A stretch of DNA of 64,000 bases from Flavobacteriaceae bacterium (lineage in GTDB: Bacteria > Bacteroidota > Bacteroidia > Flavobacteriales > Flavobacteriaceae). The stretch's first letter is position 1. The number at the start of each line of letters is the position of its first letter. The stretch is taken from positions 1 through 64,000 of the forward strand of contig CANGWK010000007.1 of assembly GCA_947457615.1 (NCBI GenBank), read 5' to 3'. Both the position numbers and the translations under genes were made by a program. Under the pieces are notes generated by a model that did not search any database, was not told the DNA's origin, and was given only the letters and a program-made list of their open reading frames with translations. This document shows, piece after piece, positions 1,301 through 47,178 of the stretch.

Positions 1301-4300
1301 CTACGATAGGATTAACAGTTAAAGTAACCACGTTAGAAGTTACAGTACCACAGTATCCGTTAATTAAGGTAACTTTATATTTAGTTCCTGATAATAAAGT
1401 AGCTGCTTTTTTAATATTTAAAGTAGCTGAAGTGTAAGTAGTATATATTGCACCCGCATTTGCTGAAGTAATAGTAACCCAAGTATCTGGAAGAAGTGCA
1501 GTAGCATATTCCCATTTATAAGTTGGTGTTCCGCCATAAGAAACTACAGAAATACTTGCTGTAGAAGTTAAAGCTGTAGTACAAATATTTGTATCTATTG
1601 GTTGACTAGCAATTCCATTTGTAACCGTTACAGCAACCTCACTTCTAGTACTTTCACATGAATTTTGAGTTTGAGTAACGTAGTAGTTTCCTGAAGTTAA
1701 AATCACATCAGTAGCTAAAACACTTCCGTCAGTTGCAGCTGAATACCAAACTAGAGAACCTCCAGAAGCTACTAAACTTGCTATTGTAGCATTCGCAGAG
1801 GAACAGAATACCTGAGGTTCAACCGCTGGTGATAAAGTTACATTTACTGAAACTGAAACTGATGTTCTAGAACTCTCACAATCGTTTGCAGTTTGTGAAA
1901 CATAATAAGTTCCAGTTGATAATGCATTACTTGAAGCTAATAAATTTCCTCCAGCTGTAGCGTCATACCATTTTAATGCCGTACCTAATGCAACTAAATT
2001 AGCAACTGTAAGAGAATTATTAGTACTACAGAAAGTTTGAGACTCTGCAGAAGGAGCTGGTGTATTATTTCTAATTACTGAAACCATTGTTCTTAAACTT
2101 TCACAAGAATTTAATGTTTGAGAAACATAGTAGTTTCTAGTAATTAATACATTATCTGAAGCTAAAGCACTTCCGCCATTTAAAGCTACATACCATTTTA
2201 ATGCAGTTCCATTTGCCACTAAATCAGCAACTGTTCCTGTGTTACAGAAAGTTTGAGCTGAAGCAGCAGGAGCCGCTGTGTTATTTCTTATTACATCAAC
2301 AGAAGTTCTAGCACTTTCACAAGAATTTAATGTTTGGGAAACATAGTAGTTTCCAGAAGCTAATACAACGTCTGAAGCTAAAGCACTTCCGCCATTTAAA
2401 GCTACATGCCATTTTAATGAAGTTCCAGTTGCCACTAAATCAGCAACTGTTCCTGTGTTACAAAAAGTTTGAGCTGAAGCAGAAGGAGCTGCTGTATTAT
2501 TTCTAACTACAGCAACAGAAGTTCTTACACTTTCACATGAATTTAAAGTTTGAGAAACATAATAGTTTCCAGAAACTAATGCATCATTTGAAGCTAAAGC
2601 ACTTCCACCATTTAAAGCTACATACCATTTTAATGAAGTTCCAGTTGCCACTAAATCAGCAACTGTTCCTGTGTTACAAAAAGTTTGAGCTGAAGCAGAA
2701 GGAGCTGCTGTATTATTTCTAACTACAGCAACAGAAGTTCTAACACTTTCACATGAATTTAAAGTTTGTGAAACATAATAGTTTCCAGAAACTAATGCAT
2801 CATTTGAAGCTAAAGCACTTCCACCATTTAAAGCTACATACCATTTGATTGCCGTTCCTGTCGCAACTAAATCTGCAACCGTACCCGTATTACAAAAAGT
2901 TTGAGCTGATGCTGTTGGCGCAGCAGTTACATTTATAGTTATTGCTACTGATGCTCTTGAACTTTCAATATCATTTACAGTTTGGGATGCATAATATGTT
3001 CCTGAGGCTAATGCAGTAGCAGAAGTTAATGCAGAAGTACTTGCTTCAGTGCTATACCATTTTATTCCTGTTCCTGTTGCAACTAAATTTGCAACCGTTG
3101 CTGAATTGCAGAATGTTTGTGCTAATACTGTTGGAGCTTCTGTAACTGGGCCTCCTAAATAAGTTGGACCTACGTTTGTTACTACTAATGGACGATTTGT
3201 AGTTACACCCGTGGTAAATTCATCGCAACCAACATCTTTTAAAGTTGCAAGAGAAGGACGCGATTGACCGCTAACGTCATACAATAAACTAGCATCATCA
3301 TCTATATTTGGAATATGTAAAATTGCTGGATAGCTTGAACTTGACGCATCAATTGCTGGACTACCTGTAGTTAATCCATAATAATTATCAGAATTTAGTG
3401 TCAAGTTTGGATTCGTATTTGCCATACCTGAAGCTATAGTAATTCCTAAAGTTCCTTGATACATATTTCCTGCAAAAGTGGTTCCATTATTAGCATTCAT
3501 GAAAATATCTCCCGTTGTTTTTTTGAAGATATTGTTTGCCCAAGTATTATTTGTTGCACCAATTCCACCAAAATCTATATTCGCACAATTGTAAAAAGTA
3601 TTGTGAACAAAATTTATATTATTAAGAACTACTGGATAAGTAGACGTATCATATAAATAGGTTACAGCATTAGCACGGTTAGAAACGGCTGTATCAGTTG
3701 TTCCTGAGTTTTCGAAATAATTATTATAACAATAAATATTATTGGCTTCTTTCACTCTAATACCACCTGCGCCTATGAAAAAATTACTATAAGCCACGTT
3801 ATAATCTCCATTTCTAAAGGTTAAATGGGCGTTTTGTTGGTTAGTAAAAGTGCAAAAACGTATTGTATTTTCTTGGGATTTAATAGAAACCGATTCGCTA
3901 TCTCCAAGACCTGTATTGTTAAAATAACAATATTCAACTATCGATCTAGATTTATTAGCATTTTCTGTACTTAAACCAATTCTGATTGGCTCATTTCCAT
4001 AATCACCTCCTGCTCCCTCAAAATTTTGGAAAGAACAATATCTAATTTTATGATATCCTGGAGTGGTATAAGAAGAATGAATTTGAATAGCACAACCCAA
4101 TTGAGTCGCATCTGTATCTGATAACTTTTTGATATTAGAATACTCAACTGTATTATACTGAGAATTTGCTTGAATTACAATAAACTTTTTAGCGTTATAA
4201 CCATTAAAGTTTAATTGTGATAATGTGTTATGACTTCCAGAAACTTCAATTAAATAAAGTCCTCCAATATCACCATTAGTAAATTGAAAGCCATTAAATT

Positions 4301-42369: not shown

Positions 42370-43842
42370 ATGAAAGCACACAACTCTAAAATCATTGGCG
42401 AAGGTCTTACTTACGATGATGTATTGCTTATTCCAAATTATTCCGAAGTTTTACCGCGCGAAGTTAGCATCCAATCCAAGTTTTCTAGAAACATTACGTT
42501 AAACGTTCCTATAGTTTCTGCAGCGATGGATACCGTTACCGAAAGTTCTATGGCAATTGCTATGGCGCAAGAAGGTGGAATAGGTGTTTTACATAAAAAC
42601 ATGACTATTGAGCAGCAAGCTGCAAAAGTTAAAAAAGTAAAACGTGCCGAAGCCGGAATGATTATCGATCCTGTTACATTGCCTTTAAACGCAACTGTTG
42701 GCGATGCCAAGCAAGCCATGAAAGAATTTGGTATTGGTGGAATTCCTGTGGTGGACGAAAACGGAACCCTAAAAGGTATTGCTACTAACCGTGATTTGAG
42801 ATTTGAAAAAATTAATTCCCGATCCATACTTGAAGTAATGACTTCTAAAAATTTAGTAACTGCTGCGGTAGGAACTACGTTACAAGAAGCAGAAGGGATT
42901 TTGCAACAAAATAAAATTGAAAAGCTTCCTGTTGTGGATGCAGATTATAAATTAGTTGGGTTAATTACGTTTAGAGATATTACTAAACTAACACAAAAAC
43001 CTATTGCAAATAAAGATAAGTTTGGTCGTTTACGTGTTGCTGCTGCTCTAGGAGTAACAGCCGACGTCCTTGAAAGAGCAACTGCTTTAGTTAATGCTGG
43101 CGTAGATGCCGTAATTATAGATACTGCTCACGGGCATACGCAGGGAGTAGTGACAGTTTTAAAACAAGTAAAAGAAAAATTTCCTAATTTGGATGTAGTA
43201 GTAGGAAATATTGCTACTCCCGAAGCTGCATTGTATTTAGTTGCTAATGGTGCCGATGCCGTAAAAGTTGGAATTGGCCCCGGATCTATTTGTACTACTA
43301 GAGTAGTTGCTGGAGTTGGTTTTCCTCAATTTTCTGCAGTATTAGAAGTTGCTGCGGCATTAAAAGGCACAGGTGTTCCTGTAATTGCAGATGGTGGAAT
43401 TCGTTACACAGGAGATATACCTAAAGCTATTGCCGCTGGAGCCGATTGTGTAATGTTAGGATCTTTATTAGCAGGAACTAAAGAATCTCCTGGAGAAACT
43501 ATTATTTTTGAAGGAAGAAAATTCAAGTCCTACCGCGGAATGGGCTCTATTGAAGCAATGGAAGATGGATCGAAAGATCGTTATTTTCAAGATGTGGAAG
43601 ATGATATTAAAAAATTAGTTCCCGAAGGAATTGTAGGGCGCGTTCCTTACAAAGGCGAATTAAACGAAAGCATGCAACAATTTGTAGGCGGTCTTCGTGC
43701 CGGAATGGGATATTGCGGAGCTAAAGACGTTCCGACTCTTCAAGAAACAGGTCGTTTTGTAAGAATTACTGCCAGCGGAATTGGCGAAAGTCACCCACAT
43801 AATGTGACCATTACTAAAGAAGCACCAAATTATTCGAGATAG
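42370..43842 (+). CDS. guaB: Inosine-5'-monophosphate dehydrogenase
   Basis: This 490-residue enzyme has the split TIM barrel with two CBS domains inserted at about 95-215. [10 protein letters not shown] starts the barrel. [11 protein letters not shown] contains the catalytic Cys. YRGMGS and a flap with GRVPYKG follow. It converts IMP to XMP, the committed step of GMP synthesis. It is monocistronic, and its 3' side borders the cassette-like region starting at 43857. Confidence 0.98.
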
Positions 43843-43856
43843 AATTAAATAGATTT

Positions 43857-43986
43857 TAACGTCTGGCTGTTTCAAGAAGTGGCGTATTAAGGAGGTATTT
43901 ACTTTTACCTTAGCACTTAACTTTAATCGAAAACTAAATGTTTAATTTAGTAATAAACTCGCCATTTCTGCAAACCGCTGATGTTG
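43857..43986 (-). other. attC-like recombination site 2 (downstream of parDE)
   Basis: TAAC (43857-43860) and GTTG (43983-43986) bound an imperfect inverted repeat. The left arm CTGGCTGTTTCAAGAAGTGGCG (ending 43884) and the right arm CGCCATTTCTGCAAACCGCTG (43960-43980) pair at about 16 of 21 positions, with GTGGCG/CGCCA next to a 75-nt AT-rich centre. The layout matches site 1 at 44616-44741: same length class, same orientation, same TTAACGT left end. The parDE pair lies directly beside it. Confidence 0.55.
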
Positions 43987-43991
43987 TAATT

Positions 43992-44291
43992 TTATTCTTT
44001 AATTCTGTTTTTTAAATCCATTCTAGAGTGCAAAAATCTAGTAATTTCAATTTCGTTTTCGCTAAATATTCTGAAGAATATTATGTGTTGCCCAGATTTA
44101 AAACCAAAAATATCATTATTAATCTCTGTATAATTTTTTCCTAAGTTTTTATTTTCAGCCAATACTTGACAATCTTCAAGAAGTTCAAAATAATATTTGT
44201 CAGCTTGACTTTCAGACCAAACTTCGTAGGTATAATCCCAAATCTTTGATAAATCTTCTACTGCTTTGTTTGTTAATTTGTATTTAGCCAT
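43992..44291 (-). CDS. ParE/RelE-family toxin
   Basis: This 99-residue protein has the ParE fold: LTNKAVEDLSKIWDYTYEVWSESQADKYY at the N-terminus, then GFKSGQHIIFFRIFSENEIEITRFLHSRMD. ParE toxins inhibit gyrase. The Arg/His-rich C-terminal strand is kept, so it looks active. It overlaps its antitoxin gene by 8 nt. Confidence 0.93.
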   Translation of the reverse strand: MAKYKLTNKAVEDLSKIWDYTYEVWSESQADKYYFELLEDCQVLAENKNLGKNYTEINNDIFGFKSGQHIIFFRIFSENEIEITRFLHSRMDLKNRIKE

Positions 44292-44532
44292 TTCTCTTTT
44301 TGGCTTTTAACGATTCAAGATGTTTTTTTGGATCAAAGTCATTTGCGATTCCACTTTCAATCCCTTCATGGATAGCTATTTTAAGAGCAATAATTTTGCT
44401 TTCTTCCTCTTCCAACAATCTTAATCCAGCACGAATGACTTCGCTAGCGTTTTTAAATCTTCCTTCTGAAACTCTGTTGTCGACAAAGTTTTCAAAATAG
44501 TCCCCAAGAGAAACAGATGTATTTCGTCCCAT
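44284..44532 (-). CDS. ParD-family antitoxin
   Basis: This 82-residue protein has an N-terminal ribbon-helix-helix domain: NTSVSLGDYFENFVDNRVSEGRFKNASEVIRAGLRLLEEEE is characteristic of ParD. The charged C-terminal tail (KKHLESLKAKKRNG) would wrap the toxin. It should repress its own promoter together with the toxin; a matching 17-bp palindrome covers the promoter at 44555-44571. Confidence 0.94.
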   Translation of the reverse strand: MGRNTSVSLGDYFENFVDNRVSEGRFKNASEVIRAGLRLLEEEESKIIALKIAIHEGIESGIANDFDPKKHLESLKAKKRNG

Positions 44533-44549
44533 AATTTTCTTATTTTCAA

Positions 44550-44571
44550 CAAAGTTACCAAAATTTGGTAA
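44550..44571 (-). promoter_or_regulatory. parDE promoter with overlapping 17-bp operator palindrome
   Basis: On the minus strand TAACTTTG (44557-44550) matches the -7 consensus and lies 17 nt before the ATG at 44532. The perfect palindrome TTACCAAAATTTGGTAA (44555-44571, arms of 8 nt around one base) shares three bases with the -7 element. Bound ParD or ParDE would block RNA polymerase. Confidence 0.6.
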
Positions 44572-44615
44572 TTATTAAAGAGAAAATTGATTTTTCTCTG
44601 ATGAAAAATTACAGT

Positions 44616-44741
44616 TAACGTTTTGCAGCTACCCGAAGGTGGCGATTTTTACCACAAATGTTGATGCGGAGAACCAATGTTTGATTAACAACAAATGTGT
44701 CTGCGGAGCACTGAACCGCCACTTTTGGGTAGGTGCTGTTA
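44616..44741 (-). other. attC-like recombination site 1
   Basis: TAAC (44616-44619) and GTTA (44738-44741) bound the site. The inner arms are GCAGCTACCCGAAGGTGGCG (44625-44644) and CGCCACTTTTGGGTAGGTGC (44717-44736), complementary at 17 of 20 positions. The 72-nt centre carries a direct duplication of an 18-mer (44654-44671 and 44691-44708, 3 differences). In cassette orientation (minus strand) the site runs from GTGCCATAAC to GTTAAC. This is the layout of integron attC sites: simple-site ends, unequal stem and variable central loop. Confidence 0.65.
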
Positions 44742-44751
44742 TGGCACGTTA

Positions 44752-45588
44752 TTATTCCCATCCGTCAAATGTTGTTGTCGTGTTAGTCAAGAGGTCAGAT
44801 ACTGATACTCCAATAATTTGTCCAACAGTCGTGAGGTCTATTTTCTGCAAACCTTCATCCCAAACTTTTTTCATTGATGTTTTTAAAGCTACGTCTTTCA
44901 TTTTTTCAAAGTCGTATGAAAGTTTGTCTTTTTTGAACATATCATTTAAGCCACGTCCAATAAATGTGTTTACTTTCAAACAAGACAATGACTCTAAATG
45001 TGTAATATCAATGGGTCTAAAAGTAATATTTTGATACGGCTTAAGTCTTATGATTAACCAGTTGTCTAACCAATCTTGGAAATTTGTTTCGTTCACACCT
45101 AACGGTGGATAAGGATTTGGTCGCACACCATAAAAGTTAACCGCCAATCCCAAAATCATTAATTGATTTACAGTTGCGTATGATATTGCATCACACGCCA
45201 TTTTTGAGCCTAAAGCAAGTATAGATTCTGGTTCTGTTTTTAATCTTTCAGAAACTAGCCTAGCTAATATAATGTGTTTGTCCTTATTGTCTGTTTGTGC
45301 CGATGTAAGTAGTGCTTTTTGCAAAAGGGCAGAAAAGTCAGGGTGGTCTTGTGCTGAATTAATTTTTTCTTGAGAAATCTGTTTTGATTCTTCAAGTTGT
45401 TTAACTTTTTGTGCTAATTCATTCAAAAAGTCCAACGTGTTTTCTGTTGCTTTTTGTTGAGCAACTTCTTTGTGGTCTTTGAAAAATGTTTGAATCCATT
45501 TTTCTCCTGAGTCCCAAGCTTTTTCTACAAACTTTCCAGCGGCTCCACCAACTGCTGCTCCAATTGCTATTATTGATAATGGGTCCAT
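44752..45588 (-). CDS. Cassette-borne protein of unknown function
   Basis: This 278-residue protein has no confident family match. Residues 1-20 form a Gly/Ala-rich, mildly hydrophobic segment (LSIIAIGAAVGGAAGKF), and residues 45-80 form a helical, charged region. A central block (HPDFSALLQKALLTSAQTDNKDKHIILARLVSERL) resembles, from loose recall, hypothetical proteins of the LPO_1073/Vpar_1526 type. No catalytic motif was found. The gene is enclosed by GTTATGGCAC ends with an attC-like site after its stop. This is the expected setting of a single integron cassette, and its cargo is usually of unknown or defence-like function. Confidence 0.8.
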   Translation of the reverse strand: MDPLSIIAIGAAVGGAAGKFVEKAWDSGEKWIQTFFKDHKEVAQQKATENTLDFLNELAQKVKQLEESKQISQEKINSAQDHPDFSALLQKALLTSAQTDNKDKHIILARLVSERLKTEPESILALGSKMACDAISYATVNQLMILGLAVNFYGVRPNPYPPLGVNETNFQDWLDNWLIIRLKPYQNITFRPIDITHLESLSCLKVNTFIGRGLNDMFKKDKLSYDFEKMKDVALKTSMKKVWDEGLQKIDLTTVGQIIGVSVSDLLTNTTTTFDGWE

Positions 45589-45621
45589 AATTTATTCAGT
45601 GTTTATCTGTCGTTTTATAAT

Positions 45622-45631
45622 GTGCCATAAC
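45622..45631 (-). other. Cassette 5' junction
   Basis: GTGCCATAAC here is the exact inverse of GTTATGGCAC at 44738-44747. In cassette orientation the unit therefore begins GTTATGGCAC and its attC-like site begins GTGCCATAAC. This self-complementarity is expected between the start of an integron cassette and the R'' end of its own attC. Confidence 0.55.
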
Positions 45632-45755
45632 TAGTATATACGCGCTACAAAGTATCGCATATACGCCTATATTTGGGTGGATTATCGCTATTTTAGTGCT
45701 ATCTATATTAAATATACAATAAAATTTTATATACAGTAACTATTTTTAATGCTAA
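45632..45755. other. Region upstream of the first cassette, possible degenerate attC or attachment site
   Basis: The sequence CTAGTATATACGCGCTAC is followed by repeats of ATATACGC (45638-45645 and 45659-45666). Near 45744 TATATACAGTAAC partly mirrors the left end. The inverted structure is weak. It may be the remains of a third site in which the first cassette was inserted. Confidence 0.25.
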
Positions 45756-45834: not shown

Positions 45835-47178
45835 CTAAATTCCTACAAAATTACTTGGGGTAATTTGCATTAATTCCGTTTTAATTGCATCCGAAACGTC
45901 TAGGGTTTGAATGAAATTATGAATGGCATTTTTATCAATGGCTTCGTTGGTTCTTGTTAAACCTTTCAAAGCTTCGTAAGGATTTGGGTAGCCTTCTCTT
46001 CTTAATATGGTTTGAATTGCCTCAGCTACTACAGCCCAGTTTTTTTCTAAATCTTCGTGAAATTTGGGCTCGTTCAATAATAATTTGTTCAACCCTTTTA
46101 AAGTCGATTCAAATGCAATTAAGGTATGTCCCATAGGTACGCCAATATTTCTTAAAACGGTGCTGTCTGTTAAATCACGCTGCAATCTAGAAAGCGGTAA
46201 TTTTGCCGAAAGGTGCTCAAAAACAGCATTGGCAATTCCAAGATTCCCTTCGCTATTTTCAAAATCAATAGGGTTCACTTTATGTGGCATGGCCGAAGAC
46301 CCAATTTCGCCTGCTTTGATTTTTTGTTTGAAATAATCCATAGAAACATACGTCCAAATATCGCGATCCAAATCCATTATTATGGTATTGATTCGCTTTA
46401 AAGCATCGAAAAAAGCAGCAAAATGATCGTAGTGTTCTATTTGAGTAGTCGGAAAAGAGTGGTGTAAACCTAAAGTAGATTCAACAAAGTCAGTTCCAAA
46501 TTTCTTCCAATCGGTATTTGGGTATGCTACGTGGTGGGCATTGTAATTTCCGGTAGCACCGCCAAATTTAGCTGCAAACGGAATATTGAATAACAAACGC
46601 ATTTGCTCTTCTAATCGTTCTACAAAAACTAAAATTTCTTTTCCTAATCGGGTAGGAGAGGCAGGTTGCCCATGGGTTCTAGCAAGCATCGGAATTGCTG
46701 CCCATTCGATGGATAATTCTTTTAACTTAGCAATTACCGAAATCAATCCAGGTAAATATACTTTTTCAAAAGCCTCTTTGGTAGATAATGGAATGGCCGT
46801 GTTATTGATGTCTTGGGAAGTCAATCCGAAGTGGATGAATTCCTTAAATTGTTCTAATCCTAAGGCTTCAAATTTACTTTTGATAAAATATTCTACCGCT
46901 TTCACATCGTGGTTCGTAGTTTTTTCGGTTTCTTTTATCCAAAGAGCATCTTCAGTAGAAAAGGTGGTATAAATTTTACGTAAATCCTCAAAAACAGATT
47001 TGCTAACGCCAGAAAGTTGCGGTAATTGGGCTTCGCAAAGCGCAATAAAATATTCGATTTCTACTAAAACTCGATATTTAATAAGCGCTTCCTCTGAAAA
47101 GAAAGCCGATAGGGAAACAGTTTTGCTTCTATATCTTCCGTCAATTGGTGAAATAGCGTTTAATTCAGTTAATTGCAT
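45835..47178 (-). CDS. purB: Adenylosuccinate lyase
   Basis: This 447-residue fumarase/aspartase superfamily enzyme has the signature GSSAMPHKVNPIDFEN. FGLTSQDINNTA contributes the active-site Ser/His region, and RTHGQPASPTRLGKE is another conserved block. It acts twice in purine synthesis: SAICAR to AICAR, and adenylosuccinate to AMP. The promoter is TACTTTTG at 47211-47204. Confidence 0.97.
   Translation of the reverse strand: MQLTELNAISPIDGRYRSKTVSLSAFFSEEALIKYRVLVEIEYFIALCEAQLPQLSGVSKSVFEDLRKIYTTFSTEDALWIKETEKTTNHDVKAVEYFIKSKFEALGLEQFKEFIHFGLTSQDINNTAIPLSTKEAFEKVYLPGLISVIAKLKELSIEWAAIPMLARTHGQPASPTRLGKEILVFVERLEEQMRLLFNIPFAAKFGGATGNYNAHHVAYPNTDWKKFGTDFVESTLGLHHSFPTTQIEHYDHFAAFFDALKRINTIIMDLDRDIWTYVSMDYFKQKIKAGEIGSSAMPHKVNPIDFENSEGNLGIANAVFEHLSAKLPLSRLQRDLTDSTVLRNIGVPMGHTLIAFESTLKGLNKLLLNEPKFHEDLEKNWAVVAEAIQTILRREGYPNPYEALKGLTRTNEAIDKNAIHNFIQTLDVSDAIKTELMQITPSNFVGI

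Follow-up and report, generated by a model that had tools for sequence, protein, structure and literature searches.

Between guaB and purB in a 64,000-nucleotide stretch of a Flavobacteriaceae bacterium genome (contig CANGWK010000007.1 of assembly GCA_947457615.1; hereafter the window), two gene cassettes carry hairpin sites resembling the attC recombination sites of integrons. We assign a probability of about 0.8 to the reading that they form an integrase-less two-cassette array of an integron-like system spread across the Bacteroidota, and that the cassettes likely owe their insertion to an integrase related to the integron integrase IntI and lacking its I2 domain. Integrons are held to depend on I2, the domain that reads the extrahelical bases of attC. 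Judged by sequence, the system has cassettes with attC-like sites, arrays headed by attI-like DNA and an I2-less integrase of the IntI clade, and we infer that this integrase moves the cassettes. The array in the window is probably inert at present, since the sole copy of the integrase family found in the genome is degraded. The initial annotation, made from the sequence of the window, had read the locus as cassettes of an integron with no integrase nearby; that reading is borne out by a covariance model of the sites, complementary cassette ends, gene layout, an attI-like stretch and cassette-free relatives. Beyond it, the sites belong to a phylum-wide family, and their partner integrase is not canonical IntI.

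Both sites lie where the initial annotation had placed them, with the TAAC and GTT(A/G) ends it described: TAAC at 43857-43860 and GTTG at 43983-43986 in attC-A, the site of the parDE cassette (cassette 2), and TAAC at 44616-44619 and GTTA at 44738-44741 in attC-B, the site of cassette 1. R1, a covariance model of 43 copies from other genomes with no rows from the window, matched attC-B with 97.1 bits (E 1.2e-21 over 44616-44741) and attC-A with 44.8 bits (E 1.2e-8 over 43857-43983), both far above chance; a search of Rfam gave one sub-threshold match, taken as chance. Such a model had been suggested as a check on the annotation, as had folding, and the plus strand (the bottom strand relative to the genes) was predicted to be the more stable at both sites, at -16.7 versus -14.9 kcal/mol on the minus strand for attC-A and -25.1 versus -19.4 kcal/mol for attC-B (z -3.4 on plus). 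The last 15 nt of cassette 1 were complementary at 14 positions to the flank of its own attC, as expected of a unit that was once circular, and 0 of 3000 Markov-resampled sequences equalled this match anywhere in 1.7 kb. The right edge of the array at 45631 is exact, with TAAC at 45628-45631 closing cassette 1. As had been noted, parD, parE and an open reading frame (ORF) of 278 amino acids run in one direction, all on the minus strand, and an integrase gene is absent between guaB and purB; the genome has a degraded one at another location.

Searching public genomes with a 29-nt pattern taken from attC-B yielded 96 stretches (pattern loci), of which, going by record titles, 89 were from Bacteroidota, two from Balneolota, one each from Ignavibacteriota and Chlorobiota, two from Pseudomonadota, and one was unplaced. 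As the pattern was chosen from attC-B, conservation of the 5' arm in these loci is partly built in. Two pattern matches (L029 and L064; handles in L denote loci, in G genomes and in C contigs) lie in records titled Alphaproteobacteria, both metagenome bins. The rows of R1 were 43 of 69 distinct copies with standard ends, 23 further copies lacking such an end. With R1, 187 of the 295 genomes sampled from the window's class (taken as Bacteroidia from the hosts of the family) proved to have the attC family. For this count no more than 11 candidates were scored in any genome, and some genomes that had supplied copies for R1 contributed to it.

We compared cassette ends over 227 sites from the window, L115, L116 and 93 pattern loci, 96 loci in all. 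The sites comprised the 150 best of the model's listing, 73 from its table (reverse-strand images, cut-off hits and short hits dropped, and the lowest 50 rows of the listing outside) and four from the window, L115 and L116. At least two sites were held by 58 of the 96 loci, none with mixed orientation once reverse-strand images were removed. In 124 stretches between neighbouring sites, a stretch's own ends matched at 5.54 of 8 scored positions versus 2.70 in other pairings (0 of 10000 shuffles), as expected if the ends were once adjacent, for instance in a circle closed at AA|C. This terminal complementarity extends over about 15 nt, with a G-T pair at a nearly fixed position. The longest ORF ran in the direction of the array in 121 of 130 stretches (opposite in eight, none in one), and its stop codon lay a median of 26 nt before attC. 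Each cassette carries one gene or operon plus a hairpin site of 126-130 nt. Related cassettes, compared by sequence, recur in different arrays. Two (90% and 77%) are common to Algoriphagus algorifonticola and Lunatibacter salilacus, adjacent in Lunatibacter salilacus and separated by a 4.1-kb stretch in Algoriphagus algorifonticola; three assemblies (L044, L082, L107) have a cassette in common at 73-85%; and the parDE DNA of the window is 68-69% alike over 393-395 nt in L022 and G041. For these comparisons, 100% pairs between pattern loci and sampled genomes were treated as the same records, and L169 and L195, both in G041, are the same place.

Comparison of the guaB-purB interval among relatives, also suggested with the initial annotation, points to insertion at this locus. 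Of 61 genomes from the genus, 58 yielded guaB, and we read 30 loci, the window's own included, to at most 1.5 kb beyond the gene. Downstream purB was present in seven of the 29 other loci; it lay within 81-109 bp of guaB, leaving no room for a cassette, in L202 (the nearest relative sampled, guaB 97%), L211, L222 and L227, and at gaps of 229 bp in L209, 578 bp in L207 and 1061 bp in L220. In the remaining 22, purB was not next within the sequence examined, and R1 gave one weak match over all 29 (L227, 21.9 bits). A gene order identical in all relatives, which would have spoken against cassettes, was not what these 29 relatives showed. Given the cassette-free intervals, the cassettes and the attI-like stretch look inserted at the window locus, and recently on the scale of the nearest sampled relative, whose interval is empty. 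By BLAST, the attI-like stretch recurs in the same genome at C8:80699-80792 (74%, E 5.8e-10), C42:1106-1171 (79%, E 2e-9) and C13:53700-53763 (75%, E 5e-4, marginal alone; a cassette start adjoins it), and by eye a similar stretch lies on contig 2 (L116 near 4060-4171) beside a YfiT cassette. This one genome has several attI-like stretches with cassettes scattered in it, of which one alone adjoins a family integrase. A repeat around 'gaaatcctgg' was seen by eye after attI-like stretches at L231:1270-1430 and L232:3360-3500 and at the end of L115.

The integrase in question, a tyrosine recombinase, lies beside cassettes on contig 8 (L115:10799-11452, equal to G000:C8:80801-81643) and is degraded; at E <= 1e-60 the genome has no other match to the family. 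It contains four in-frame TAA codons, and the arginine of its HxxR motif is replaced by leucine. The array in the window may be a plain relic, captured once, now fixed and immobile, and kept for parDE. We regard this as rather probable, and it is compatible with our preferred reading; the stop codons, the changed HxxR motif and the out-of-register ends of cassette 2 all favour it. The recent look of the insertion tells against it, as does the 94.7% completeness of the assembly, from which an intact integrase copy could be missing. Three integrases from the genus (G057, G068, G084) are intact and can be aligned with one another, and their surroundings, when compared, had no other common DNA longer than 100 nt.

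The proposal that an I2-less integrase inserts these cassettes draws on the position of its gene in other genomes. Integrase relatives were found in 12 of the 96 pattern loci, and in all 13 integrase loci (these 12 and contig 8) the sites lay at the 3' end of the integrase with cassettes in its direction. By script, the distance from integrase stop to first-cassette start was 13-102 nt in nine of the 13 and about 1.46 kb in two, and was not found in two; in the loci examined, sequence comparison places a putative attI beside the integrase, with the cassettes starting there. Regions chosen by integrase agree: 12 of 20 regions picked from the 31 best integrase hits contained sites, all 42 in the same geometry after four reverse-strand images among 46 hits were dropped, and the eight site-free regions had 98-2630 bp of contig remaining. 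Of the 11 hits left out, five (G430, G516, G049, G465, G515) had less than 0.7 kb of contig downstream and six (G194, G625:C2, G573, G412, G409, G421) were omitted without a rule; G194, G412 and G421 have attC on the same contig, and the attC listing was known when the regions were chosen. Some contigs end close to the integrase, at most a few hundred bases away (e.g., L181, L194, L196, L197, L199), as if attC repeats break assemblies, so arrays are likely under-counted. Among the 295 class genomes, the integrase was present in 150 (E <= 1e-60), 'I2-less' here and in the IntI-bearing genomes below meaning an unbroken match to A3, with proteins not inspected singly; 125 genomes had both attC and integrase, 62 attC alone, 25 integrase alone and 83 neither.

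Canonical IntI acting in trans, from other cells or from another class of the phylum, might move the cassettes instead, leaving the I2-less integrase as a bystander. IntI did score above cut-off in 105 of 395 phylum genomes, and of the first 40 listed from outside the class with a match to IntI (39 of them above cut-off and G112 below), 19 had R1 sites. However, of the 54 sites in these genomes, 14 had an I2-less integrase and one a partial IntI no more than 12 kb away, with 39 near neither, and at the one IntI-near site, in G112, fragments of an I2-less gene are closer still. Within the class, IntI exceeded the cut-off in one of the 295 genomes (G037:C40:3592-4530, L200), whereas 187 had sites. 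The attI-like boundary also adjoins the I2-less gene, and the modelled stems are mostly bulge-free. On the counts of one in 295 genomes and one in 54 sites we rejected canonical IntI as the local partner, and we consider its action in trans improbable.

The protein itself was also compared with IntI. In eight aligned members, both catalytic arginines, the second histidine and the tyrosine were invariant (the first histidine is lysine in L019), and PF13495 and PF00589 matched all eight. I2, an IntI-specific region of about 40 residues, was absent from the aligned members, and the spacing from KDR to LRH was 60-61 residues in nearly all I2-less rows versus 102 in five IntI; one row had 64, two values of 164 were artefacts of the search pattern, and neither the 2a3v row nor one aligned member (L088) gave a usable spacing. 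For a tree of 48 proteins, 28 of 30 integrase loci yielded a protein; I2-less integrases and IntI formed a group with 99/99 support that left out the two XerA and four Xer rows, and IntI was one clade at 100/100. A smaller tree drew the I2-less family as a grade with weak support, and a single I2-less clade was not rejected (approximately unbiased test, p 0.56), so that the family may be either sister to IntI or a grade; as the grade was not upheld against one clade, we do not claim that IntI descends from this family. An AlphaFold model (predicted local distance difference test 88.5, predicted template modelling score 0.59) had as its best PDB fold match 2a3v, a Vibrio IntI. Many of the integrases carry an N-terminal domain of about 65-100 amino acids, pieces of which came from 23 of 33 loci tried; it is conserved, alpha/beta, and fairly well predicted by AlphaFold (e.g., L109:7554-7847). 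It matched nothing at E <= 0.001 in the PDB sequence or fold search and, with weak Pfam hits to DUF5710 in eight of the 23 and to HARP in five as the sole hints, was left unnamed; it may bind DNA.

Host XerC/XerD could in principle be the recombinases that act on the hairpins, a role they have for phages with a folded dif-like site; these would then be Xer-exploiting arrays. Bulge-free stems would suit such a role by mimicking double-stranded DNA, as described for CTXphi (PMC4792948). Against this, the arrays begin at an integrase gene of their own, with fixed geometry at 42 of 42 sites, and the integrase family groups with IntI and not with XerC/D or XerA in the trees built. We rejected host Xer on geometry and tree (a dif-like sequence was not searched for) and hold this explanation to be very unlikely. 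Least plausible of all is that the 126-bp hairpin is a dispersed repeat of the miniature inverted-repeat transposable element (MITE) or repetitive extragenic palindromic (REP) type that borders genes by chance: its conserved sequence and phylum-wide spread would fit, but the cassette-ends test, on which we rejected it, the single orientation per locus, the one-gene spacing and the fixed position relative to one integrase family do not.

How an I2-less integrase might choose the strand of attC is suggested by the modelled stems. The figures here derive from hits in the integrase-chosen regions, covariation from 46 including the four reverse images and bulge counts from the 42 without them. Pairing held in 95.1% of cells, two-sided changes occurred in 20 of 23 stem pairs, and the stem covariation score was 0.688 versus 0.179 when shuffled and 0.07-0.11 when slid. 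As modelled, 36 of the 42 stems had no bulge and so did not show the extrahelical bases of canonical attC; I2 and extrahelical bases are missing together here. A spacer loop of 5:1 nt was present in 40 of the 42 sites and, besides the few bulges, is the sole asymmetric feature. Wobbles were polar, with G of the G-T pair on the 5' arm 71 times and on the 3' arm 6 times in 798 cells, of which 18 were C-A appositions. In the closed form, the bottom strand was more stable in 107 of 118 stretches and equal in two, stretches with an N or a missing box being excluded from this set. We postulate that recombination by the I2-less integrase would take place at AA|C, between attI and the bottom strand of attC in its folded form, with cassettes entering beside attI and leaving as circles. 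In place of extrahelical bases, strand choice would come from the G-T wobbles, which become C-A mismatches on the top strand, and from the asymmetric 5:1-nt loop next to the crossover box. There may be a second, I2-independent integron mode, in which I2-less integrases of the IntI clade act on bulge-free hairpins and read the strand from wobbles and asymmetric loop, as an ancestral state preserved or re-created; we put even odds on this wider proposal.

Several observations weigh against our preferred reading of an integron-like system with an I2-less integrase. At the window, the ends of the parDE cassette are complementary out of register alone (8 nt at an offset of 4; 1 of 6 in register), and elsewhere 24 of 118 stretches have fewer than 4 of 6 end matches. 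R1 misses the attC nearest the integrase relic in the window's own genome, and weak R1 matches adjoin two of 21 canonical IntI genes. No integrase hit (E <= 1e-60) was found in 62 of the 187 genomes with attC, and no attC in 25 of the 150 with integrase; kinship among the genomes inflates the co-occurrence of the two (odds ratio 6.7). Among the 13 integrase genes, five (L021, L034, L047, L074, L115) are broken or truncated at the locus edge, the integrases of G038 (C33) and G019 (C33) point away from the array as in classical integrons, and that of G066 is on the wrong side of it. The alignment behind the covariation and bulge figures was fitted to the model and so leans towards the model's structure. 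The 48-protein tree is small and has long branches, of which the program warns. By PDB sequence ranking, archaeal XerA (215 and 207 bits) came slightly above IntI 2a3v (206 bits, in two stretches), and NCBIfam ranked the own-genome copy higher as XerA_Arch (170 bits) than as integron integrase (154 bits), both below cut-off.

Features of the window locus, with the crossover points of the cassettes drawn at AA|C.
Feature	Position	Strand	Evidence
guaB (IMP dehydrogenase), left flank	42370..43842	+	Pfam IMPDH E 2.5e-160; stop codon 14 nt before attC-A
attC-A, attC-like site of parDE cassette	43857..43986	+	R1 match, fold; hairpin written on bottom strand
Cassette 2 (parDE), between AA|C crossover points	43860..44618	-	Boundaries presumed from the integron rule; Pfam, related DNA
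parE toxin (toxin-antitoxin pair), 99 aa	43992..44291	-	Pfam PF05016 E 4.1e-16
parD antitoxin, 82 aa	44284..44532	-	Pfam PF03693 E 3.3e-25
attC-B, attC-like site of cassette 1, conserved 126-bp family	44616..44741	+	R1 match, fold
Cassette 1, between presumed AA|C crossover points	44619..45630	-	Termini complementary 14/15 nt
Terminal repeat of cassette 1, attC side (GTTATGGCACGTTAT)	44738..44752	+	Complementary-ends test
278-aa protein, LPO_1073/Vpar_1526 family (function unknown)	44752..45588	-	NCBIfam NF045477 E 6.5e-58
Terminal repeat of cassette 1, start side (ATAATGTGCCATAAC)	45617..45631	+	Complementary-ends test
attI-like stretch adjoining first cassette	45628..45724		BLAST and alignment; resembles stretch from integrase relic to cassette on contig 8
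purB (adenylosuccinate lyase), right flank	45835..47178	-	Pfam Lyase_1 and ASL_C

The 278-amino-acid protein of cassette 1 had no Pfam match, and among viral contigs searched for relatives 16 stretches were considered and none was confirmed.

As far as the accessible parts of the following papers go, extrahelical bases have been tied to I2, and the origin of the pair has been called a chicken-egg paradox (PMC4792948), with a lack of intermediates mentioned (PMC7790495). Integrases have been selected by the additional domain or patch, some of them from the Bacteroidetes/Chlorobi group (PMC2426708); as that survey kept additional-domain integrases only, an I2-less family would be missed there. 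For the Bacteroidetes, first In0 only and then one complete integron, in Salinibacter, was described (PMC9024848); the Bacteroidota have been listed among integron-bearing phyla (PMC8618304, PMC9668308), and none of 11 attC models was named for Bacteroidetes (PMC8352920). Strings of the site sequence sought in papers were not found, nor was any report of such a system in the literature searched; as this takes in neither preprints nor the bulk of subscription papers, a description may exist elsewhere. If the reading is right, the class sampled has a large cassette pool of its own (sites in 187 of 295 genomes), searches based on IntI miss its integrase, integrons can work, or once began, without I2, and the origin of I2 and attC becomes testable in living systems. 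Should a second, I2-independent mode exist, the published paradox would dissolve.

Among known systems, the array in the window is like a cluster of attC sites lacking integron-integrases (CALIN), as it has two sites less than 4 kb apart with no integrase adjoining, and differs in that its sites were found by the new model R1 rather than by IntegronFinder's own model. XerA and XerC/XerD share the fold and catalytic motifs of the family integrase and likewise have no I2, XerA being the top PDB sequence match slightly above IntI, but they fall outside the clade of IntI and I2-less integrases, and by fold IntI comes first. Neither XerA nor XerC/XerD is known to head cassette arrays. Unlike Xer-exploiting elements, arrays of this family carry their own IntI-clade integrase. 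An integron-like subgroup of tyrosine recombinases in which the insertion is not fully conserved has been described (PMC8138268), although the accessible part of that paper ties no cassette arrays to insertion-free members. With canonical integrons, the family has in common one-gene cassettes in the same direction, a hairpin site boxed by AAC/GTT, an attI-like head, an IntI-clade recombinase and complementary ends. It differs from them in that the integrase lacks the additional (I2) domain, usually points towards the array and often carries an N-terminal domain, that the modelled stems are mostly without bulged bases, and that terminal complementarity reaches about 15 nt. As far as sequence can tell, the system works like an integron and is not canonical by two defining features, I2 and extrahelical bases.

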